From assembly GCF_001518015.1 (NCBI RefSeq), contig NZ_LPUY01000064.1, positions 1-64,000 on the forward strand: a stretch of 64,000 nucleotides of DNA, written 5' to 3'. A program made the translations under genes and the position numbers. How positions within the stretch are numbered: the first letter of the stretch is position 1; each line of letters begins with the position of its first letter. Source of the stretch: Tritonibacter horizontis (GTDB taxonomy: Bacteria; Pseudomonadota; Alphaproteobacteria; Rhodobacterales; Rhodobacteraceae). The notes beneath the pieces are model-generated. The model was not told the origin of the DNA. It worked only from the letters and a program-made list of their open reading frames with translations, and did no database searches. This document shows, in pieces, positions 34,547 through 50,644 of the stretch.

Positions 34547-36616
34547 TCAACCGGGCTCCTCCGTGGCCACCGCCGCCCCGACCGGGTCTGGCGCAGCAAT
34601 CCCCCCAAGGCCTGCACGGTCCTGCGGGCGATAGGGGCCGCGACTGATCAGATCATCGATTGGGGCAAATCCTGCCGGATCGTCCTGCGCTGACTGGTGC
34701 CACGAGGACAGGGCGATCGCCAACTGGCGAGAAACAATCGGCGCGGCAACGCTGGTGCCGGACATGCGTACGACCGATCCCGCGCGCGCCCCCGCTGCCC
34801 GCCGACCTGGGTTTACCGCAGCGTCATCGGCGCAGGCATGTAAGGTCACGTTCGCGCCCTCAGCCAGCGGGCCACCCGGACCCGCGGCGGAGTAATTGGA
34901 CAACGCCTGCCGATTTCCGACCGCCGCCGCCACTGTGACGATATCACGCCCACCGCAAAGCGCGTTCAGCGTTCCCGCCCGGCTGACCGCACAGCCCGCT
35001 GATTCCAGTTCGACCGACATATGACCGTCAGCCGCATAAGTCACATAGGCGCTGTCTTCGAGCCAGGACCGCTGACGGACCGGGTTGATCTGGTTGGGCA
35101 CATCGTTTCGCAACACCCGCAGCTCAATGTCCCGCAGCTGCCTCTCTCCCGGGGCGAGAGAGACTTCGACGGTCCAGTCGCCACAGGGCGGCAGCGGACG
35201 ATAGGGGTCTTTGGCGGCATTTGGTGGCAAGGCCACGGTAACAATTTCCACCCCATCGCCCGGTGCGGTGTCGCCCTCTGGTGCAAAATCGCGCTGGAAC
35301 CCGTAGTAGATCCCGAATTGCGCCAACCCGTTGGCGCCATTGTTGTCGGTCTGTTCGACCAGCTGCAAGGCGCTGTCCAGTGCCATCGGCCCTTGTGGCA
35401 AGGCCGGAGGATAAAGCCCCGCCCCCGTTGGCGGGGTAACCTTGACCAGAAGGGACGCATGTGTCGGCTTTTGTGCCCGCCGCGCCACGGCAATTTCCAG
35501 ATAGGTCGAGCCTCTGTTCTCCGGCGCAACCCGCAAGGTTGCCCGGTGCGGCGCACCGGGTGCAATTTCAGCACGCGCCACGAGGCGGGATTGCAGCGTG
35601 TTCCCCGCAGGCAGCACCACCCTCATCGGCGCCCCATGGGTCTGGTGCCAATAGTCCATCGCCTGCTCGAGCGCCGCGGCAATCAGATGGCCGCCGTTTT
35701 TGCCAATCCCGCCAAGGCCGAAACTGAGGTTCAGCACCAAGGGAAACGCCTGTCCCGCCGTAGCCATCATCGTTTCGGTCCGCCGCATGATATCCTGCAC
35801 CCCGAGGATCATGGCCCCCGCCATGAAGGTGGCCCCGGTATCGCTGACCAGTGCCGTCGGCAGGTTGACCGCAAGGATCGGAAATTTCTCCGGATCGGTG
35901 TCGATGGCGTCGCCGCGCCCGGCCCCTGCCGCAAGATCGGCAACATGCGTCCCATGCAGACGGCGGTGACGAAACGGGCTGTGCCCGGCCTGTCCGATCA
36001 CGGGCAAGGCCTGATAAAACCGGTCCTCGTCGAAATCCGCCCGGGCCAGCCGTTCTTCGATCTCCGTCCGCCCGAAAACATGGCCAAAAGGCACATCGGA
36101 CGTCGTGCCCCGCAGACATTGTGCATCTTGCTGCCAGACCGAGGCAAACCGACTTCGCCGCCCCTGCCCCATGCGAAAGTTGGGATGTGCGAAGGCAATA
36201 CCGTCGTCAATAACACCAATGACCGTGCTGTCCGACGGCACGGCAGGAAGCTCCAGCGGCGGCGTCGTTCCAAGCGGGGCACACCCGCATTGCGCCGCTT
36301 TCGGCAGGATCGGGGCAAACAGTGTCCGGTCGCGCAGCCCGTCCCGAACCCGCTCCAGCAGGGCGGCCAGAGGGTCGGCCTGATCCGGGATCGCGCCCCC
36401 GCGATGCAGCGCCTGCGCCTGTTCCGGCGACATCAGAATGGGACGGGCGGGCGCCGCTTCGTTGCTGTCCTCCAGGTCCAGCGCCAGCAGGCTCGCAGCC
36501 TCCCCCTGTCCCACGGCTTGAGCTTCGTCTTGCAAGGTATACCACCAATGCGCTGCCGGGTGGCGCGGCAGCGGGTTGGTTGGGCCTGCCGTTTCAGTAC
36601 GCCAGTACAGGGGCAT
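34547..36616 (-). CDS. Subtilisin-family (S8) serine protease
   Basis: A 689-residue serine protease. The catalytic Asp is about residue 137 in VIGVIDDGIAFAHP, the His is about residue 221 in RRLHGTHVADLAAG, and the Ser is about residue 622 in RMSGTSVAAPIVSRQ. An N-terminal region of about 120 residues has no Sec signal, and a beta-rich insert lies between His and Ser. ATG 36616 follows AGGAG; the longer frame starts inside the upstream gene. It begins two bases after the stop of the PAP2/GHT-repeat gene, so the pair is co-translated. Location and substrate are unknown. Confidence 0.9.
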   Translation of the reverse strand: MPLYWRTETAGPTNPLPRHPAAHWWYTLQDEAQAVGQGEAASLLALDLEDSNEAAPARPILMSPEQAQALHRGGAIPDQADPLAALLERVRDGLRDRTLFAPILPKAAQCGCAPLGTTPPLELPAVPSDSTVIGVIDDGIAFAHPNFRMGQGRRSRFASVWQQDAQCLRGTTSDVPFGHVFGRTEIEERLARADFDEDRFYQALPVIGQAGHSPFRHRRLHGTHVADLAAGAGRGDAIDTDPEKFPILAVNLPTALVSDTGATFMAGAMILGVQDIMRRTETMMATAGQAFPLVLNLSFGLGGIGKNGGHLIAAALEQAMDYWHQTHGAPMRVVLPAGNTLQSRLVARAEIAPGAPHRATLRVAPENRGSTYLEIAVARRAQKPTHASLLVKVTPPTGAGLYPPALPQGPMALDSALQLVEQTDNNGANGLAQFGIYYGFQRDFAPEGDTAPGDGVEIVTVALPPNAAKDPYRPLPPCGDWTVEVSLAPGERQLRDIELRVLRNDVPNQINPVRQRSWLEDSAYVTYAADGHMSVELESAGCAVSRAGTLNALCGGRDIVTVAAAVGNRQALSNYSAAGPGGPLAEGANVTLHACADDAAVNPGRRAAGARAGSVVRMSGTSVAAPIVSRQLAIALSSWHQSAQDDPAGFAPIDDLISRGPYRPQDRAGLGGIAAPDPVGAAVATEEPG

Positions 36617-36618
36617 GC

Positions 36619-37890
36619 TCAGCTCTCCTGTTCCGGGGCACCGCGCCGCAGCTCCGCACGACAGGCAGACCAAAGCCAATTCAGCTGCGGGCTATAGCGC
36701 AGGGGCAGCTCGCCTGTGGTCACGGTCGTGACGGTCTGACCGTTGATCGCCCCGCCATCGCGGAGTGATGCCATTGTATCCACAGTGTAATCCGCCGCAC
36801 CAAAGGCAGACATATCGGCATCCAACTTGCGCCAGGGCACCGGCGTTTCCGCGGCTGGATCCCCCGGCGCGGGGGCTTTTACCCGCGCAAGGACATATCG
36901 GGCAAGCGTATCGCCCAGCACCGCCCCTGCCGCACTGTCGACGGGGAAATGGACCCCCGCCACTGTCCGGCTGGCCGCGATGCGCACCGCGAGACGGTCA
37001 CATTGAGTGTTGAACTGCTGCAGCCAGGCCGCCCGCTCTCCCTCAAGACCCTGGGAGAGTTCCTCTGCCAGCGCCTTGAACAGTGTTGCGAGAAAGATCG
37101 CCTCGGTCGCGTGACCGCTTGGCAGCGATCCATGTGCAGGCGTCTGGATCATTGGCTGGATCTGCGGCGACAGGCAGGAGGGCCGTGGACAGCCAAACCC
37201 ATGTTTGATGCGGAATTGAACCATCGCGCAAAACCGCAGGGCCGCCTGAATAAACGCCAGCGTGGCCTTGTTCCGAGCCGGGTGAATATGCGCCAGAGCG
37301 GCAAAAAAGGACGTCAGATCCGTAAGCTGAACATCAATTTCTTCCATGCGATCGGCACGCAGATCCGCGTAGTGGTGGAGGTAGTCCAGTTGCTGCGCAA
37401 AGACATCTGGGCCCGGCGCCGCCAGCCGCATCAGTTCGACCAATGGTCCTGGGTGCAGGGCGTCCGAGTGGCACAGATATGCCACCCCTCGCAGCGGGCC
37501 ATCCTCGGGAACGACCTGTTCGAAATCAATGAACAACGGAGCCATCAGTTCATAGTCGATTACCGCCGTCTGCGGCGGACCGGAAAGATGGCCAAGATCG
37601 GGGCTGTCGATCACGCTGCGGGCCGTGACCTCTGGCGGTTGCCAGCTGCCGGTGATCCCTTCGCGGGCCAGCATCAGGGCCGTCATCATCGCCGCGCTAT
37701 GACCCGATCCGGAAAACGAGGCGCCTGTATGGCCTGTGTGCCCAGTATGACCCGTGTGTCCGGTATGACCCGTGTGTCCGGTGTGACCTGTGTGCCCAGT
37801 ATGGCCCGTGTGTCCGGTGTGACCTGTGTGGCCCGTATGCCCAGTATGACCCGTGTGTCCGGTATGACCCGTGTGCCCAAATCTCGCCAT
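36619..37890 (-). CDS. PAP2/vanadium haloperoxidase-family protein with (Gly-His-Thr)17 N-terminus
   Basis: A 423-residue protein. Residues 5-55 are 17 uninterrupted Gly-His-Thr triplets directly after MARF. The C-terminal half carries the full vanadate/phosphate-pocket signature: K229-x6-R236-P, P257-S-G-H260, and S307-R-x5-H314-x3-D318. These occur in bacterial acid phosphatases and vanadium haloperoxidases. No signal peptide is seen. ATG 37890 has AAAGGA upstream; a TTG at 37953 would add 21 residues. The S8 protease gene follows after two bases. Haloperoxidase is favoured over PAP2 lipid phosphatase because no transmembrane helices are visible. Confidence 0.85.
   Translation of the reverse strand: MARFGHTGHTGHTGHTGHTGHTGHTGHTGHTGHTGHTGHTGHTGHTGHTGHTGHTGASFSGSGHSAAMMTALMLAREGITGSWQPPEVTARSVIDSPDLGHLSGPPQTAVIDYELMAPLFIDFEQVVPEDGPLRGVAYLCHSDALHPGPLVELMRLAAPGPDVFAQQLDYLHHYADLRADRMEEIDVQLTDLTSFFAALAHIHPARNKATLAFIQAALRFCAMVQFRIKHGFGCPRPSCLSPQIQPMIQTPAHGSLPSGHATEAIFLATLFKALAEELSQGLEGERAAWLQQFNTQCDRLAVRIAASRTVAGVHFPVDSAAGAVLGDTLARYVLARVKAPAPGDPAAETPVPWRKLDADMSAFGAADYTVDTMASLRDGGAINGQTVTTVTTGELPLRYSPQLNWLWSACRAELRRGAPEQES
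37726..37878 (-). repeat. In-frame 9-bp minisatellite, 17 units
   Basis: Seventeen tandem 9-bp units, all coding for Gly-His-Thr on the minus strand, fill 153 bases exactly. Units differ only at synonymous third positions. Longer internal copies exist: units 3-6 (in plus-strand order) equal units 14-17 at 35 of 36 bases. The pattern fits expansion by slippage and unequal exchange under selection for the peptide. Confidence 0.97.
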
Positions 37891-38013
37891 TGTCCCCAGT
37901 CCTTTGAGTTTGAAATTCTGCCATGCATCGAAAATGGTTTCGCCGAGGAGCAAACCAGCGAGACCTCAACAGCCTTCGTGAAAAATTCGTGAAATCCGAC
38001 AGTTGCAGGTCGG

Positions 38014-39594
38014 TCAGGCAAGGCCGGCGCGGCGCAGATTGCCTGAAGGATACTCCGGCTCCGCAAGGTCCTTGATCTCGAACCCCGGTTCCAGATCGCG
38101 GATCTTTTCAACCAGCTGCTCCATCGCATCGCCATCACCACGCTGATGTTCCAGCGCCGCAAGATAGCGCAGCGGTGGGCGAAAACTTGGGACCAACGAA
38201 TGCGCCATGCGGCTGTGGACCCGGGCCTCTTCAAAATTCCCGGCAAGCGCGGCCGATACACCCGCCTGCATTTCCCACCAATGCCGAGAGCGCGAGAAAC
38301 GCCCGATCTGCAGGGCCCGGCGCGAAAACCCGACCGAGGCCTCGATCTGGCCCGCCGCGATTTCGGCATTCGCCCGCGACGCCCAGGCCAAGGGATTGGC
38401 CGGGTTCAGCGCCGTGGCATCGCGCGCCAGCTCGCCGGCGGCCAGAAAATCCTGGCCCGTCAACAGGAACACATGCGACGCGGCCGCCTTGAGCGCGGCA
38501 TTCTCCGGCTCTTCCTGCAAGGCGCGCCGCGCGAGGTTCGCGGCCAGATCCGCCTGATAGCCGGGATCCAGATCAGTGTTCTCGACAATCAGGTTTGCCT
38601 GAATGAACGCCCGCCAGGCCAGAAACACGCCTTTTGGCACAAGCTCATAAGCGGCCTGCAAATCTGCATTCGCCTGTTCCAGATCCGGCTGATCCATGCT
38701 GAATATATTTCGCAACGCCCGAAACCCAAGGAGGCTGGCGTTGATCCGGGACTTGCGGCTTTCACTCAGTGTCAGCGCGTCAACTGCCGCCTCCTGAGCG
38801 CGATAGGCGAGTTGCAGCAGCTCCTCGGTGTCGCAGCCCAAAAGCAGCTCCTGCTTTCCACGCCAATGTGCCGACCAGTTGTGCTGCCCTGCGCCGCTGC
38901 CCGGCATCACCACCCGCAACAGCGTTTCTTGCCCTGCCTCGAGGATCTGCGATTTGATCAGCGTGTGGCTGGCGGCATCGGCGTCCGTTGGTGCGGTTCG
39001 TATGTCCAATGGCGCCAGATCCGACAGGCCTTTCTCGATCCGGTTCTGGAACACCTCGCTCGCAACAGAAAGCGCCAGTTCGTCAGAGGAGATCCGATTG
39101 AAAAAAACGATCGGTTCCCCGGTTCCGGTCGACGTTGCGCGTCCCGCAACATCGTCACGATTTGGGGCGGCAAGGATCCGATCCGGCGGGTCGCGCTGTT
39201 CGGTCAGCCAGCTGTCAAAGGGCGCCGGGAGCTCCAGCCCCTCGAGAAAATCCCCTGCACAAGCATCCTTCGGCGGACATGCGGCATTGCTTGTCACAAG
39301 GGCGCCGTTCAGGCTCAGCATGCCATGTTCAGACAAGACCACATCCGGGTGATCAAAGGCTTTGCGGATCAGACGCAGCTCCTGGCGCAGACTAGCAGAG
39401 GCCTGCGTTTTCCCGCGCCCCTGCCAGAGCAGGTTCTGCAGCCAATCCCGCGTGCGCTGCCCCTTGCGCCCGGTGGCAAGCGCCGCGATCAGCGCCTTTC
39501 CGCGTTTGCTTGGAACATGCACGACTGTGCCATCCGACGCCGTGACTTCGAACGGGCCGTACAAATTGACGTGAAATGTATGTGTCTCCGTCAC
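38014..39594 (-). CDS. SARP-like transcriptional activator with TPR-like repeats
   Basis: A 526-residue regulator. The N-terminal domain (residues about 6-95) resembles the OmpR-type winged helix of SARP/BTAD activators: HVNLYGPFEVTASDGTVVHV, then KRGKALIAALATGRKGQRTR and ASASLRQELRLIRKAFDHPD. A middle region resembles the partner-binding part of adenylate-cyclase-like regulators. TPR-like helical pairs run from about residue 330 to the end (NPANPLAWASRANAEIAAGQ). It is encoded just upstream of, and parallel to, the PAP2/GHT and S8 protease genes (123-base gap), so it may control them. Confidence 0.78.
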   Translation of the reverse strand: MTETHTFHVNLYGPFEVTASDGTVVHVPSKRGKALIAALATGRKGQRTRDWLQNLLWQGRGKTQASASLRQELRLIRKAFDHPDVVLSEHGMLSLNGALVTSNAACPPKDACAGDFLEGLELPAPFDSWLTEQRDPPDRILAAPNRDDVAGRATSTGTGEPIVFFNRISSDELALSVASEVFQNRIEKGLSDLAPLDIRTAPTDADAASHTLIKSQILEAGQETLLRVVMPGSGAGQHNWSAHWRGKQELLLGCDTEELLQLAYRAQEAAVDALTLSESRKSRINASLLGFRALRNIFSMDQPDLEQANADLQAAYELVPKGVFLAWRAFIQANLIVENTDLDPGYQADLAANLARRALQEEPENAALKAAASHVFLLTGQDFLAAGELARDATALNPANPLAWASRANAEIAAGQIEASVGFSRRALQIGRFSRSRHWWEMQAGVSAALAGNFEEARVHSRMAHSLVPSFRPPLRYLAALEHQRGDGDAMEQLVEKIRDLEPGFEIKDLAEPEYPSGNLRRAGLA

Positions 39595-39722: not shown

Positions 39723-40370
39723 TTACCCGGATTTGCGCAGGATCCATCTGTCGCTGGACCAGATATTCTGATGGCGGATGTCGCCTGGCAACAGGGTGAC
39801 AAAGCGGTGTCGCCCGCCCCCCGCGTCGATCCAGCACAAATCGACAGGGGCGTCGCTGGTGTTCTGCACCGTGAGCGTTCTGGGGGTCGCACCTGGGCGG
39901 ATGGGCGGTGCCACCGGCATCGACGCGTCCTCAAGCCGCGCCTTGGCCCGCGCCTCGGGTTTCGCCGCAGCCAGGGGCGGCATTCGAGGCTCCGTCCCGT
40001 CCCCGGCAAGGAGCGCAGCGTCGGTTTGGTTCGGCTCAGCTGGCCTGATCTGTTCTGCAGCCGACGGATCGGGATCAGCCCCATCGGTTTCACCATAGCG
40101 CCGTCCGTCGACCGCGATGAGAGAGGTGAAAAAAGCAAGCTGCGTCAAGGCGCCGAAACAGGCCTGTCGCCCCTGTGCGCCATCTTCGCCAACCAGAAAC
40201 CATCGCGCCCCGTTCCAGATGGACAGGGTGCAGGTGCGTGGGTTTATGCTGATCTCAAATTTAGCGGGCAACTGGCTGAAATCCAGCACATGCCCCGCGC
40301 AATCCTCGACAATCGAAGACCAGAACGTCGCATCGTCATAGGTGGTGTCTGTTACGACATAGGTGGCCAT
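39723..40370 (-). CDS. Protein with von Hippel-Lindau beta-domain-like C-terminus
   Basis: A 215-residue protein from ATG 40370. Residues 1-90 are a globular domain of unknown type (ATFWSSIVEDCAGHVLDFSQ, FEISINPRTCTLSIWNGARW), followed by an Ala/Pro-rich linker (about 95-160). Residues 160-212 resemble the VHL beta domain: TVQNTSDAPVDLCWIDAGGG, then a hydrophobic strand, a LLPGDIRHQN turn and WSSDRWIL. In bacteria such domains are rare and of unknown use. No signal peptide. It precedes the SARP-like gene on the same strand, but a terminator-like stem lies between. Confidence 0.6.
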   Translation of the reverse strand: MATYVVTDTTYDDATFWSSIVEDCAGHVLDFSQLPAKFEISINPRTCTLSIWNGARWFLVGEDGAQGRQACFGALTQLAFFTSLIAVDGRRYGETDGADPDPSAAEQIRPAEPNQTDAALLAGDGTEPRMPPLAAAKPEARAKARLEDASMPVAPPIRPGATPRTLTVQNTSDAPVDLCWIDAGGGRHRFVTLLPGDIRHQNIWSSDRWILRKSG

Positions 40371-40522
40371 GTTCCGCTCTGACGTGCCTCTGGGGGATGC
40401 GCCCGGACCATCCGGGCAGCAAGTGCCCGGACAGTGCCACAAGAGATGTTAACAGCCCGGAAAAGTAGCGTTAAATCAGTCGCGAAAGCGAAGGCCAGCC
40501 CGCGCCCGCGACCTGAGATGTG

Positions 40523-45820: not shown

Positions 45821-48800
45821 TCAAACGGTCGGGGCTTGCTTCAGCGCTTTTTGCACATCTCCACCGGTCTTCCAGGCGTGTTCCTCAAGCGGCTGTTTCA
45901 GGTAGCAATCCCTGTCTTCCTTGCCGACCACATATCCGTAGGGATCGGAGTTGGCGGCAAACATCAGCGCCTGTTTGTATTCGGGGTCGCCCGGCAGGAT
46001 CAGCCCTTCTTGCAACCGCTGCACCAGATAGTCCTGATAGTTGTGGGCGTTTTCATGCACGATGGTGTCAATCGTATCGAAGAAGTCATCGAACGTCGCC
46101 TCTTCGTGGGTATTGATATTGATCACATTGGTCGACGGGTTGAACGACCCAAGATCGCCCGGTGGCTCCGAAAAGGTCTGAACCGTTGGCACCGGCATTC
46201 CGTAGATCTCGCATTCCGCCTTTAACGTCTTGGTCAGCAACGCGACCTTGCGCTCGGCGGAAATCATCGTGCCGGGATCGGTATCTGCCCAATTGGCGCG
46301 CGCCGCCTGCAGTTCCTGATCGTCGCGGATCGCCTCCTTCAGCTTGTCGCGCCGTTCATCATCCACCTTGATGAAATCCGGATCGAGTTCCATCGACATA
46401 TAGACCTTGATCTGCAATTCGCGCTGCTTCTGGGTCAGGCTCTTTTTCTGACCGCGAAGCGCGTTCAGCAAGTCGATTTTTTCTTCCGTCGTCTTTGTTT
46501 TCAGATCGGCCGGGTCGATGGCATCAAGCTGGGTTTCGGCCACGGTCGCCTTTTGCGCGGCTGCCAGATCCGCCGCCGCATGATCGGTTTCCTTTGCAAC
46601 CAGCGCATTTGCGGCCTTGCCGACATCGGCAACAAAGATCAGCGCCGCGTCATAGTCGTGACCGAAAAAGGCCTTGCGATAGAGCCCCATGACCTCGTCG
46701 AACCGGGCAACCAATTTTTCCAGCTCAGGCGTCAGGGGACGCATCGCATTCGCTTTGGTATAGGTCGCACTGATCTTCGCCCACTCGGCCGCAACCGCAT
46801 CGCGTTTCGGTTTGAGCAGATCGTGCTGCGCCTTCACCGTCAAAAGCTCTGCGAGGGCGGTTTTCAGGGCTGCGAAAGCGGCGCGGGCTTTGGTGTATTC
46901 CTTGGCCTGAAAGAGACCAACTGCGGCTGAGAGGCTGGCGCGAAACACCGTGATTTTATCCTCTGTTTCACGGTCAACCGGCTCCATTGCATCTGCGAGA
47001 TCCCGATCGGTCTTCAGCGCCGTCCATTCATCCGAGAACCATTTTCTGTCCGCGACCAGCCTGTCATGATCCGCCTTCAATCCTTCCAGCTTCACCAGAA
47101 CCGGTTCCAGTGCCGCGAATTTTTCAAGGCCAAGTACGAAATTGTCTTTTACATCAGCGTCATCACACTCATCCGAGAGGTCATCGACCTGTTTTTTCAG
47201 GTCTTTGATCTCATCATTGATGTCACTGAACTGGAGCACTGCTGCCACACGCGCGACAAACACATCGTTGTATTTCGCTTCGAATTCGGTTTCACGCAGA
47301 CCCTTTGCCGCTTGTGCCCCCGCGACAGCGGCCTGTGTCTCCGCAGAAATCACCGCTAGCTCGTCTAGGACGGCAACCGCTTCGAGATATCGTTCATCGG
47401 CCAGCAAGTCTTCGTATCGCACCCACTTGTCATTCAGTCGCCTGTCGAACGTGTCAAGATCCGGGGCATTGTCCGCGGTCTCATCCAACGCATCATCGAC
47501 ATCCGGCTCGACCACCAGAACCCGGTCCGCGCAGGCCTGCCGCGCCGCCGCTTTTGCCTTGTCGCTCTCCGCCTTTTCCGCCAGCACCGCATCGGCCTTC
47601 GCCACGGCATCTGTCAGCGCATCCATTGCACCAGGCGCGGCCGTTTTATCCGCAGCGAGCAACACATCCCATGCCGCCGTGAAGGCAGCAAAAAGCCCCA
47701 TCATCTTGTCGGTATAGGGTTTGACCGCATGGGCGTCGTTCAGCTTGGCTTGCACCTTGGCGTATTCATCACGCATCAGGCGGCGGTCCGCCTGAGCTTG
47801 TTGATCTGCCGCGTCCAGACCCGTCAGTTCCTGCGCCAGCGTTTCCAGTTCGCCTACCAGTGCGACGCATTTGGCCACATCCCCGGCGGTGTTATAGGCC
47901 TCGACAAAGCTTGCGATTTTCGCGTTCATCGACGCGACACAGGCCAAAAAGTCAGGTGTCGCCCCGGTTCTGCTTCGTGTCGCATCGGTCCCGTCGCGGA
48001 CTGCGACAAAGCGCTGCAATGCGTCGTCCCGATCCGCCTGCAAGGCGGCGCAGGTGTCTTTCAGGTCGATCAGGCGCTGCGCGTCGATCAGCCCCTGACT
48101 GATCTGGGCGTCTACCGTTGGCCAGTCATTCACTTTCGCGGCTTCTTCTGCCGCCTTGGCTGCCGCTTCGGTGTCCTTGAACAACTGGGCAGCCTCGGTG
48201 GTGTTCTCCAAAGTCAGCTGGGCCTCGGCGTATTTGACGGCAAACTCACCAGACTTGGCTAGGACTGTCTTGCGCAAGGCCACAAGCACATCGAATTCCG
48301 CTTTTCGAGCCAACAGCTTGGCCGTTGCCCGCCGCAGGACGTCAATCGCCGCAAGTGCCCGGCCATACTCTTTTCCGTTCAGGCGCAGACCCGCAATCGA
48401 ATCGGCGTTCTGGAAGGCGGTTACATCCGCTTTGAACTCCGCCGAGACCTCGTAGATCGTGCGGGCCACATCCAGGTCGCCCTTCAGCGCCCCATGCTCG
48501 CGCAGCGCTTGCTCCTTCAGTGCTGCGGCCTTGGTGATCTCAGCCTCTTCAGCCTGCAGTTGCGTGATGGTCGCAAGCAGCGATTTCAGCATCGCCTCTG
48601 CGGGCTTGAGCTTCTCGGCCCCGGTCAGCTTGTCGATCTGGGCGGACTGGAACACAAGCGCGCGCTGCAATTTCAGGGCAAGTTTGGTGTCCCCCGGAAG
48701 CGCTTTCAACTGGTCGATCTCTGCGGATTTGGCGTCGCGATCCGCCACCACCTTGGCCAGTGCCGCGCGCAGTGCTGCCCGCGCCTGTGCCGGCGCAATC

Positions 48801-50644
48801 AGCTGGTCAAAGGCCCGCAACGCATCCGTTGCCCGGCCAAAATCTTCGGACGTTGGCGCGACAGCGGCCAGCGCCTCGGTGACTTTCGTGCGCTGCGCTT
48901 CGAATGCGGCAGCTTCGTCCTCCGTCGCGCCCTCGGGCGTTGTCAGTTTCGCAAGTGACTCCAATAGGTTCTTCTTGCGTTTCTCGATGACGGTCTTTTC
49001 GAACTCGATCTCGGCAAGAAGCGTCGCATAAGCGGTGACTTTTGCCTTTGCACCGGTCAGGTCATCTGTGCGCGATGCGGCCGTTGCATCGGTATAAAGC
49101 GTCGCAGCATCGCCCGATTTATAGGGCATGAATGGCAGGGCAAGATCCATTCGGACCTTGTAGGCCTCCAGCTCCGCGCGCAGTGCCGCGGCATCCTCCA
49201 ACGCCGCGATGGTCTTGGCCATCTCCGCGCCTGCGGCCGCCGCATCCTGCTGATCGGAGGTGTCTGCCGCGGCCGCCGCGGCCGCCAGCTCCCGCACCTT
49301 TTCAAACGACGCCAGGGCCGCTGCGTACTCCTCGTTTTCCAGCTTCCCCTGGGCAAAGGCAAAGGCCGCGCGCAAGCCATCCAGATCGCCTGTGCCCTTT
49401 TCAATCGCCGCATCAAAGAGTTTGCTGACCTCGATCAACTCGTCTGCCGCCCGCTGGCGCAGCCGCGCCGCCTCTGCGATCAGCAGCTCAACCTTGGTCA
49501 GCGTGACCCGCGCCAGATCCAGATCATTGCTGGAAACCGCCGACTGAATTTCACCGGCAAAGCCTTTGGCCTCGTTCAGCTTTTCAGGTAAAACCTTGAT
49601 CGCCGCCTTGAGGTCCGGGCCAAGGGATTTCAACGCCGCCAGGATTTCCTTGCCAGTCTGCAATTCTTTTTTGCGGGTTTCGACGGTGCCCTCGCGCGCG
49701 CCCTCGGGGGCTGCGCTCTCGGCCTCGCGCAGCAGCTTGTTCACTTCCGCCGCAGCCTTGATCGCGACCGCAAATTTGTTGCCGTCAGCCTGTTCCAGCG
49801 CGTAGCCCCAAACCGCGCGGATCTTTGATACGTCACCGGCGTTGCGCTTCAGGGCCGCAGCAACTTCGCCCTCCAGTTTGGACTTGATCGCCAGCCATTT
49901 CGCCGCGTTCGGATCTGCTTCTCCGTCGCCCGCTGGTGGGCCGTCCGGCGGCGGCGGCGCCCCGGCCCCTGCCGAGGCGACAATCTTGTCCAGGGCGGCG
50001 CTGACCTTGGCCAGGCCCGCTTCCAGTTTCTCGACCTCTTTGGCCTTCAGCATCTCCACAAGTTGGGTATAGGGTTTGGTGAAGGGTTTGCGGGCATCCG
50101 CATCAAGCCCCTGCACCCGCGCGCCCAGCGCCTTCAGATCGCCCTTCATCCGAACCAGAACATCGCCCTCGGCCAGCGGCTCAGGGCTGACTGCTGCAGG
50201 CGGGGTCGGCGCTGTTTCGGGTCCGACCGGCGCTTCGGTCGGCGCCACAGCAGGCGGGGCTTCAGCCAAATCAGGATCGTCGGGCAGCCCCTCCTCGACA
50301 TCGCTGTCGAGGATACTGCCATCCGGGCCGAGGATCTGGATATTCAGGTTTACCTTTTGGGATTTCAGATATTTCTTCAGCTTCTTGGCCATCGAAGGAA
50401 GCTCTTTGTCGCAGGTCAGCGACATCAGCTTGCCTTCGACAGTGACCGTGCCAAACGCGGCTTTTTTGCCGACACCTTCGTCTTTGGCAGCTTTCCCGAC
50501 CACCTTGGCCGGTTTGCGCAGGTCGAGGCCGAAATAGTCATCGGCGGGTCCGCTGCCGGGGTTGTACCCAAAGGCCAGCGGTTTCTTCCGTGCCATTTTA
50601 ATAAGGCTTTTTAGTTCTCCACCCTTAACGTCAAACGTCCCCAT
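45821..50644 (-). CDS. Giant helical-repeat protein with C-terminal HExxH peptidase-like domain
   Basis: A 1607-residue protein I do not recognise as a named family. Residues 1-115 form a small alpha/beta domain (GGELKSLIKMARKKPLAFGY, FGTVTVEGKLMSLTCDKELP). A Pro/Ala-rich acidic linker covers 116-165. Residues about 165-1440 are an extended Ala/Lys/Glu/Asp-rich helical array with imperfect repeats of roughly 95 residues. The last 130 residues change character and contain HENAHNYQ at 1530-1537, an HExxH zinc motif, with LEEHAW about 55 residues later as a possible third ligand. There is no signal peptide. A 154-residue gene follows. Confidence 0.85.
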   Translation of the reverse strand: MGTFDVKGGELKSLIKMARKKPLAFGYNPGSGPADDYFGLDLRKPAKVVGKAAKDEGVGKKAAFGTVTVEGKLMSLTCDKELPSMAKKLKKYLKSQKVNLNIQILGPDGSILDSDVEEGLPDDPDLAEAPPAVAPTEAPVGPETAPTPPAAVSPEPLAEGDVLVRMKGDLKALGARVQGLDADARKPFTKPYTQLVEMLKAKEVEKLEAGLAKVSAALDKIVASAGAGAPPPPDGPPAGDGEADPNAAKWLAIKSKLEGEVAAALKRNAGDVSKIRAVWGYALEQADGNKFAVAIKAAAEVNKLLREAESAAPEGAREGTVETRKKELQTGKEILAALKSLGPDLKAAIKVLPEKLNEAKGFAGEIQSAVSSNDLDLARVTLTKVELLIAEAARLRQRAADELIEVSKLFDAAIEKGTGDLDGLRAAFAFAQGKLENEEYAAALASFEKVRELAAAAAAADTSDQQDAAAAGAEMAKTIAALEDAAALRAELEAYKVRMDLALPFMPYKSGDAATLYTDATAASRTDDLTGAKAKVTAYATLLAEIEFEKTVIEKRKKNLLESLAKLTTPEGATEDEAAAFEAQRTKVTEALAAVAPTSEDFGRATDALRAFDQLIAPAQARAALRAALAKVVADRDAKSAEIDQLKALPGDTKLALKLQRALVFQSAQIDKLTGAEKLKPAEAMLKSLLATITQLQAEEAEITKAAALKEQALREHGALKGDLDVARTIYEVSAEFKADVTAFQNADSIAGLRLNGKEYGRALAAIDVLRRATAKLLARKAEFDVLVALRKTVLAKSGEFAVKYAEAQLTLENTTEAAQLFKDTEAAAKAAEEAAKVNDWPTVDAQISQGLIDAQRLIDLKDTCAALQADRDDALQRFVAVRDGTDATRSRTGATPDFLACVASMNAKIASFVEAYNTAGDVAKCVALVGELETLAQELTGLDAADQQAQADRRLMRDEYAKVQAKLNDAHAVKPYTDKMMGLFAAFTAAWDVLLAADKTAAPGAMDALTDAVAKADAVLAEKAESDKAKAAARQACADRVLVVEPDVDDALDETADNAPDLDTFDRRLNDKWVRYEDLLADERYLEAVAVLDELAVISAETQAAVAGAQAAKGLRETEFEAKYNDVFVARVAAVLQFSDINDEIKDLKKQVDDLSDECDDADVKDNFVLGLEKFAALEPVLVKLEGLKADHDRLVADRKWFSDEWTALKTDRDLADAMEPVDRETEDKITVFRASLSAAVGLFQAKEYTKARAAFAALKTALAELLTVKAQHDLLKPKRDAVAAEWAKISATYTKANAMRPLTPELEKLVARFDEVMGLYRKAFFGHDYDAALIFVADVGKAANALVAKETDHAAADLAAAQKATVAETQLDAIDPADLKTKTTEEKIDLLNALRGQKKSLTQKQRELQIKVYMSMELDPDFIKVDDERRDKLKEAIRDDQELQAARANWADTDPGTMISAERKVALLTKTLKAECEIYGMPVPTVQTFSEPPGDLGSFNPSTNVININTHEEATFDDFFDTIDTIVHENAHNYQDYLVQRLQEGLILPGDPEYKQALMFAANSDPYGYVVGKEDRDCYLKQPLEEHAWKTGGDVQKALKQAPTV

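Follow-up and report, generated by a model that had tools for sequence, protein, structure and literature searches.

Internally uniform N-terminal peptide arrays of freely varying sequence on a PAP2/vanadium-haloperoxidase-like enzyme whose gene usually neighbours those of a protease and a regulator

Why an enzyme should begin with 17 uninterrupted Gly-His-Thr (GHT) triplets is the question raised by a locus of Tritonibacter horizontis. The window, i.e. the whole stretch of 64 000 nucleotides that was analysed (contig NZ_LPUY01000064.1), contains the following features around this array.

36619..37890 (-): array-bearing PAP2/vanadium-haloperoxidase-like protein, 423 aa from the MARF start (ORF and Pfam)
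37726..37878 (-): (Gly-His-Thr)17 array, residues 5-55 counted from MARF
36949..37206 (-): vanadate/phosphate pocket, K173...R180, P201-S-G-H204 and R252...H258 (core numbering), with H197
34547..36679 (-): S8 subtilase, 710-aa ORF, start uncertain, overlapping the 3' end of the enzyme gene (Pfam Peptidase_S8, E 1e-10)
38014..39594 (-): regulator, 526 aa, SARP-like N-terminus by eye, a conserved neighbour with weak C-terminal TPR matches

The ORF at 36619-37953 (-) encodes MARF(GHT)17G followed by the core. An alternative TTG start at 37953 is possible for this ORF; the MARF start is conserved in loci L031-L034. Counting from the sequence gave exactly the 17 perfect units (residues 5-55, 37726-37878) that a sequence-only reading of the window had reported. 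The base differences between units were 100% synonymous, as that reading had also claimed, and the 17 tripeptides were written with 10 distinct 9-base words. Gly was encoded by six GGT, four GGG, four GGA and three GGC codons; for His, both codons were used, and for Thr all four. Nine neighbouring ORFs showed a less even codon use (GGC 49%, ACC 49%). TRF reported 70-78% matches on the array DNA. A 38-base exact DNA repeat inside the array is a sign of some segmental duplication. A pattern of three consecutive GHT triplets was matched 15 times in the T. horizontis genome, in 15/15 cases within the window array. AlphaFold prediction of the full-length protein (5 sequences) was uninformative (mean pLDDT 34).

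A search for GHT triplets and a comparison of copy number between strains had been proposed as a check. Four relatives with GHT arrays, with core identities to the window protein of 71-84%, were obtained from the genome-collection scan. Units were counted with a script: 19 in Phaeobacter sp. B1627, 19 in the MedPE-SWcel metagenome bin, 12 in an uncultured Rhodobacteraceae bin and 3 + 2 around the sequence GQSGVAWPS in Tritonibacter mobilis. These arrays come from other assemblies, which rules out an assembly artefact or a single-strain oddity.

A search of 295 genomes of the family yielded matches in 108. The locus set was made of 100 of the places listed, with matches of about E 1e-10 or stronger, and 16 plasmid loci. 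Near-identical loci were removed before counting (L035, L096-L100 and L108 for the 115 homologues; L032, L035, L042, L096-L100, L104 and L108 for the 132 arrays). The 115 homologues include locus L146, which the set of 141 enzymes does not; L185 was retained. Three or more perfect units in tandem were present at the N-terminus of 111 of the 115 core homologues (seven near-duplicates removed). Core relatives that all lack the repeat had been named beforehand as a refuting outcome; the opposite was observed. With a stricter rule (four units and 12 residues) the count was 109/115, L034 and L068 having three units. The array-less homologues were L074, L123, L137 and L119, the last one being cut by a contig end. 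In 116 of the 123 cases where a Met was found upstream, the array started at most 12 residues from the nearest one, and in 51 of these 123 the distance was 4 residues.

Class- and phylum-level samples gave matches at E<=1e-15 in 20/385 and 29/398 genomes, respectively. All 32 ORFs above 85 bits in these samples contained repeats by eye (seven were already known loci), including L184 with three units and L185 with an imperfect GL tract in which 12 of 37 units deviate. Inspection by eye of the first 150 residues of 12 ORFs below 75 bits in the profile searches revealed no array. Locus L146 was odd, with a TH array away from the N-terminus and a Tat-like signal by eye. Modules were found in alpha- and betaproteobacteria, some of them on plasmids; named members are Caballeronia and Paraburkholderia (Betaproteobacteria), Rhizobium, Roseibium, Terrarubrum, Phaeobacter and Paracoccus. 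As a control, the other ORFs of at least 150 aa in the fetched loci were scanned, giving 3 array matches in 3315, all at one place of L066. A second control on neighbouring ORFs of at least 250 aa gave 6 matches in 1267. Judged by their coordinates, three of these ORFs run antisense to arrays, two are the second enzyme gene of L053, counted double, and one is at the L066 place. At this place (L066:12247-14905), a different ORF carries (DPV)17 in mid-protein; it is the only other such array place in the 3315-ORF scan. On the Parasedimentitalea marina plasmid pW43B (L109:3132-5545), the array enzyme is broken, and the annotation shows hypothetical proteins at this place.

The sequence of the unit was highly variable. 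Up to rotation, 95 distinct units were found among 132 arrays, the commonest (GGA) in only 7. Units seen were NVG, GNA, NSF, GAY, NAY, SAY, GGF, TGW, TAM, MAS and GKM, and further GRS, NAE, EAV, DAR, GQ, SR, GGAH, GGGA, HGGT, GGGAG, AGI, GWE and GS. The period was 3 residues in 98 arrays, 4 in 23, 2 in 9 and 5 in 2, and 115/132 arrays were internally perfect. His was present in the unit of 29/132 arrays, Pro in 4/132 and Cys in 0/132; Gly was absent from 34/132. Compared with the cores, the arrays were rich in Gly (33.5% versus 7.8%), Asn (8.9% versus 2.6%) and His (6.9% versus 2.9%). Two functions suggested for the GHT tract failed at this point. A His-rich strip for binding metal, vanadate or polyphosphate would fit only the 29/132 units with His, and a collagen-like Gly-X-Y rod is at odds with the 34/132 units without Gly and the 34/132 arrays of period 2, 4 or 5. 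Both are ruled out as a general function by unit composition across the 132 arrays.

Pairs of homologues sharing a unit were counted with one sequence per 90% cluster. At a core identity of at least 70%, the unit was shared in 5/6 pairs, all five inside the GHT clade at 70-83%, the sixth pair being GGF versus the NSF of the broken gene in L109. Sharing then concerned 8/23 pairs at 60-70%, 5/73 at 50-60%, 11/447 at 40-50% and 28/3692 at 30-40%. The value of 37/38 obtained at 70% or more without clustering is due to the inclusion of near-identical strains. Since sharing at this level rests on pairs of the GHT clade, no general identity threshold is stated. Two species of one genus with a core identity of 69% had AGV x16 and TGV x14. 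Unit characters followed the tree, with 154 changes versus 196 ± 4 with shuffled labels. By eye, neighbouring clades often differed at one unit position throughout the array, as in the groups G-x-H, G-x-[QE], [GNSA]-[AGS]-[YF] and GG[LIV]. Copy number varied among Phaeobacter strains (NSF x5, x6 and x7, L095-L100). Module pairs of the same genome shared a unit in 0/18 cases, and chance alone would give few. Selection is thus on the uniformity of the peptide, without a given sequence being fixed.

At the DNA level, the units were far from uniform. Identical DNA units throughout were found in 0/112 arrays, and both six-fold codon blocks occurred in one array at 26/45 Ser/Arg/Leu positions (for these two tests only identical array DNA was removed, so that near-duplicate strains remain in the counts). 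Two codon blocks in one array are not what simple amplification of a seed with later silent drift would produce. After removal of arrays with fewer than 4 units (128 arrays left), adjacent units shared a codon in 885 of 3199 comparisons, versus 1192 ± 23 expected when codons are permuted among the units at each array position, and 1375 ± 29 when they are taken from core usage. The observed value lies 13 SD under the permutation value. The longest exact DNA repeat averaged 16.2 versus 16.1 expected; as it was not shorter than expected, codon avoidance acts on neighbours. Between adjacent units, pN was 0.030 (biased low, because arrays were detected as perfect runs) and pS 0.93. Peptide repetition is kept and DNA repetition is avoided. 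These uniform units with scrambled codons agree with the earlier proposal that the peptide is selected and not the DNA alone.

The core behind the array contains the pocket motifs of the VHPO/PAP2 superfamily (K-x6-RP, PSGH and SR-x3-GxH-x3-D), and Pfam PAP2 matched the window enzyme with 53.9 bits (cut-off 27.2). The complete phosphate/vanadate pocket announced by the sequence-only reading was retrieved: K173, R180, H197, S202, H204, R252, H258 and D262 were invariant in 28/28 aligned diverse cores. H197 lies seven residues ahead of H204, at the position of the second His typical of bromoperoxidases (-7 from the acid-base His). Haloperoxidase chemistry is a plausible candidate activity. The best PDB sequence match of the core was acid phosphatase 7f17 (E 4e-7). 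When viral PAP2 sequences were used to predict the core with AlphaFold, the fold was partial (pLDDT 50), and the top fold matches of this low-confidence model were a PAP2 membrane phosphatase and acid phosphatases. The Pfam Collagen match of the window enzyme (E 1e-9) falls on its Gly-every-third array, as do the PHROG tail-fibre matches. No NCBIfam model matched above its own cut-off. PAP2/haloperoxidase-like proteins are also encoded on viral contigs (L206-L243). The pocket residues were invariant in the 13 viral proteins aligned with the window core, and no array was seen in the first 60 residues of the 26 proteins inspected among these 38 loci.

A protease was encoded near 110 of the 115 homologues (103 subtilases and 7 papain-like proteases). 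A strict motif search caught S8 in 48/115 only, and a profile was used instead (97/115); the other subtilases (L144, L145, L147 and L135, L139, L141) were found with Pfam. The Asp/His/Ser triad is present in the window subtilase (triad columns of the alignment). It was complete in 94/97 profile subtilases, L109, L132 and L137 being gapped at one or all columns. Among the papain-like proteases, that of L136 was above the Pfam cut-off, those of L138 and L148 were just below it and those of L142, L143, L149 and L150 were recognized by motif only. As these seven modules form one clade, a non-homologous protease fills the slot there; all of them (7/7) have 4-residue units. No protease was seen at L088, L092, L130, L134 and L146; for all of these but L146, the stretch stops within about 3 kb on the downstream side. 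The regulator was at most 5 kb away in 111/115 homologues. Five regulators were scanned with Pfam. A Trans_reg_C winged helix and TPR were found in L095, and a class III cyclase and TPR in L101 (Roseibium); the others had an N-terminus with a weak or no Pfam assignment, followed by TPR matches of varying strength, those of the window regulator being below the cut-off. With PADLOC models, the enzyme and the regulator gave no match and S8 gave only weak IetS matches. A hydropathy scan found a hydrophobic N-terminus in 4/141 enzymes, whose own units are partly hydrophobic, and in 0/97 S8 ORFs. As hydrophobic N-termini are nearly absent, the module is probably cytoplasmic. A second regulator homologue of the T. 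horizontis genome (C52) had no array enzyme in the 18 kb retrieved; judged by eye, its neighbours resemble acyl-CoA and branched-chain amino-acid transport genes.

Whether the unit follows the protease was examined with distances in the 86 loci possessing a core, S8, a regulator and at least 4 units. Unit distance was correlated with S8 distance after removal of core and regulator (partial Mantel, partial r 0.24, 0/300 permutations); the residual partial r was 0.00 for the regulator and -0.05 for the core. The unit-S8 value was 0.32 with ML distances and 0.07-0.12 within period-3 arrays. In one period-3 subset, the partial r of the regulator was above that of S8 (0.097 versus 0.085), and in another the two were about equal (0.083 versus 0.089). 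False positives are a known weakness of partial Mantel tests. By parsimony of the unit characters, the gene trees could not be told apart (S8 149, core 154 and regulator 154 changes; 156.0, 154.2 and 154.8, respectively, with 300 resampled columns). The closer agreement of unit distance with protease than with core distance in the partial Mantel test is taken as suggestive.

The explanation that we tentatively prefer starts from the observed arrays, with their uniformity, unit turnover between lineages, scrambled codons and conserved neighbours, and from the intact catalytic residues of most subtilases and of the 28 aligned enzymes. The three genes would form a cytoplasmic module made of a TPR-containing regulator (DNA-binding or cyclase), an enzyme of VHPO/PAP2 fold and a protease. 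The N-terminal array would be a disordered, multivalent tail offering one short motif per unit to a single partner. This partner would most likely be the module's own protease, which might dock on the array or cut it and so switch, release or turn over the enzyme. Units would be kept identical because one reader reads all of them; if the preference of the reader drifts in a lineage, all units would be rewritten, and any small, flexible unit would suffice if all are alike. Scrambled codons would prevent collapse of the array by slippage. Against reading by the protease, Gly-rich units (GS, GQ, GGA, GGGA) look like poor subtilase sites, and an array is lacking in L074 and L123, although both lie near a regulator and a subtilase with full triad. 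Slightly more doubtful is the wider idea that the array may be a rewritable peptide barcode, in which a perfect repeat of 2-5 residues is required, almost any sequence will do and the units are made to change jointly by a reader, which would probably be the adjacent protease. Each module would then be a private lock and key, enzyme tail and protease, repeatedly reinvented, and this would be a case of concerted evolution at the protein level without DNA homogenization.

The main rival to a protease-read tail is self-association, which we regard as unlikely. The tails of enzyme copies would pair in any register, as a condensate, a polyproline/polyglycine-II or a cross-beta stack. As a single gene supplies every copy in a cell, any uniform unit would work, which would account for a free choice of unit with forced uniformity. 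The enrichment in Gly, Asn and His, the absence of Cys from 132 units and the 0/18 same-genome pairs sharing a unit (though chance gives few) are consistent with it. Such an assembly would leave the frequent protease and regulator unexplained; the units are also widely spread in charge and hydrophobicity (DAR, SR, GKM, AGI, TGW), and no structure could be predicted for the array protein. It is improbable that the array is a multi-copy peptide precursor from which the protease would free peptides, to be sensed by the TPR of the regulator while the enzyme modifies them or responds to them. This follows the logic of RRNPP/Phr systems, would give a role to all three genes and agrees with the TPR matches, of varying strength, in the five regulators scanned; multi-copy peptide precursors are known to combine perfect units with scrambled codons. 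However, the hydropathy scan found no secretion signal on the enzyme or the protease, dipeptide and Gly/Ala-only units hold little information, and regulator distance added nothing to unit prediction in the full set. GHT is moreover kept across its clade, whereas pherotypes vary within a species.

Next in likelihood, and also improbable, comes a shield against ATP-dependent or neighbouring proteases, to which a simple N-terminus would give no grip, as does the Gly-Ala repeat of EBNA1. Any low-complexity unit would therefore work and impurities would be selected out. The protease nearby in 110/115 homologues, the conservation of simplicity rather than identity and the rank of GGA as commonest unit (7/132) fit such a shield, but aromatic or charged units (GWE, NSF, SAY, DAR, SR) should offer grip. 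Lower again we place an inert flexible leader or a non-classical targeting tail of nearly irrelevant sequence. It would agree with the Gly/Asn-rich composition and with the closeness of the array to a Met (at most 12 residues in 116/123), but its perfection would decay, whereas 115/132 arrays are perfect and pN is far below pS even if biased low, and codons alternate beyond chance. Least of all can the arrays be a product of DNA slippage, a phase-variable locus or an assembly artefact, although NSF copy number varies from x5 to x7 among Phaeobacter strains and the window array holds its 38-base exact repeat. The lack of identical DNA units throughout any of the 112 arrays, the two codon blocks at 26/45 positions, the avoidance of identical adjacent codons and the agreement of other assemblies all stand against it; a slippage product or phase-variable simple repeat is ruled out by the scrambled codons and by units made of whole codons.

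The array enzymes were compared with known systems. The Lys/Arg/Ser-Gly-His/Arg/His pocket is common to them and to vanadium-dependent haloperoxidases (Ascophyllum bromoperoxidase 1qi9, bacterial iodoperoxidase 4usz/4cit), to which the core has a weak sequence match (1qi9, E 3e-4) and weak fold matches. Array enzymes differ from these by their smaller size, their N-terminal array and their better sequence and fold matches to phosphatases of the superfamily. Class A acid phosphatases/PAP2 (7f17, PhoN) gave the best PDB sequence match and the top fold matches, but 7f17 has Gly where the array family has H197. Class A acid phosphatases are secreted with an N-terminal signal peptide. By contrast, the array of the window enzyme starts at residue 5, and the simple hydropathy scan gave a hydrophobic N-terminus in only 4/141 enzymes of the array family. 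Of the 12 PAP2 matches below 75 bits, in which no array was seen, 9 contain a hydrophobic stretch above 1.6 within their first 130 residues. Collagen-like proteins (Scl, phage tail-fibre collagen) have Gly at every third residue like the window array, which is without Pro; the array family has unit lengths of 2-5, no Gly in 34/132 units and Pro in 4/132. Multi-copy precursors and RRNPP systems (Rap/Phr, PlcR/PapR) combine a TPR regulator, short identical peptides and a subtilase. The array module resembles them in short identical units, a subtilase and TPR matches of varying strength in the five regulators scanned, but here the array is fused to an enzyme, an export signal was not found and the units are very simple. 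The Ser-Asp repeat adhesins of staphylococci (Sdr, Clf) are described with a short peptide repeat, variable codons and length variation (PMC3324548). These are surface adhesins with one fixed unit, whereas array enzymes lack a signal peptide and their unit differs between lineages.

No description of such arrays or of the module was found among the open-access literature matches listed, and NCBIfam, PADLOC and PHROGs gave no family name beyond composition or weak matches, in line with the earlier remark that no family of this layout is described. Usual protein families keep or lose a sequence; here the sequence is free and internal uniformity is enforced. This makes testable the concerted switching of units, the existence of a tract reader and the role of a haloperoxidase-like enzyme that lacks a signal peptide beside a subtilase and a TPR regulator. 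The set of 132 arrays could also serve as a collection of simple repeat peptides when disorder, condensation or protease specificity is studied.

Some further observations were made on the surroundings of the modules. The Terrarubrum module subtilase (L107:4373-6472) is annotated as hypothetical, yet Pfam S8 matches it. In Paracoccus zhejiangensis (L106:1-719), the module lies near the type VI secretion gene tssH. In the window, a 239-aa protein without Pfam family is encoded just past the regulator (39723-40442, -). A 1607-aa protein without Pfam or NCBIfam family is encoded at 45821-50644 (-) and has a C-terminal HENAH motif (HExxH-type) by eye.
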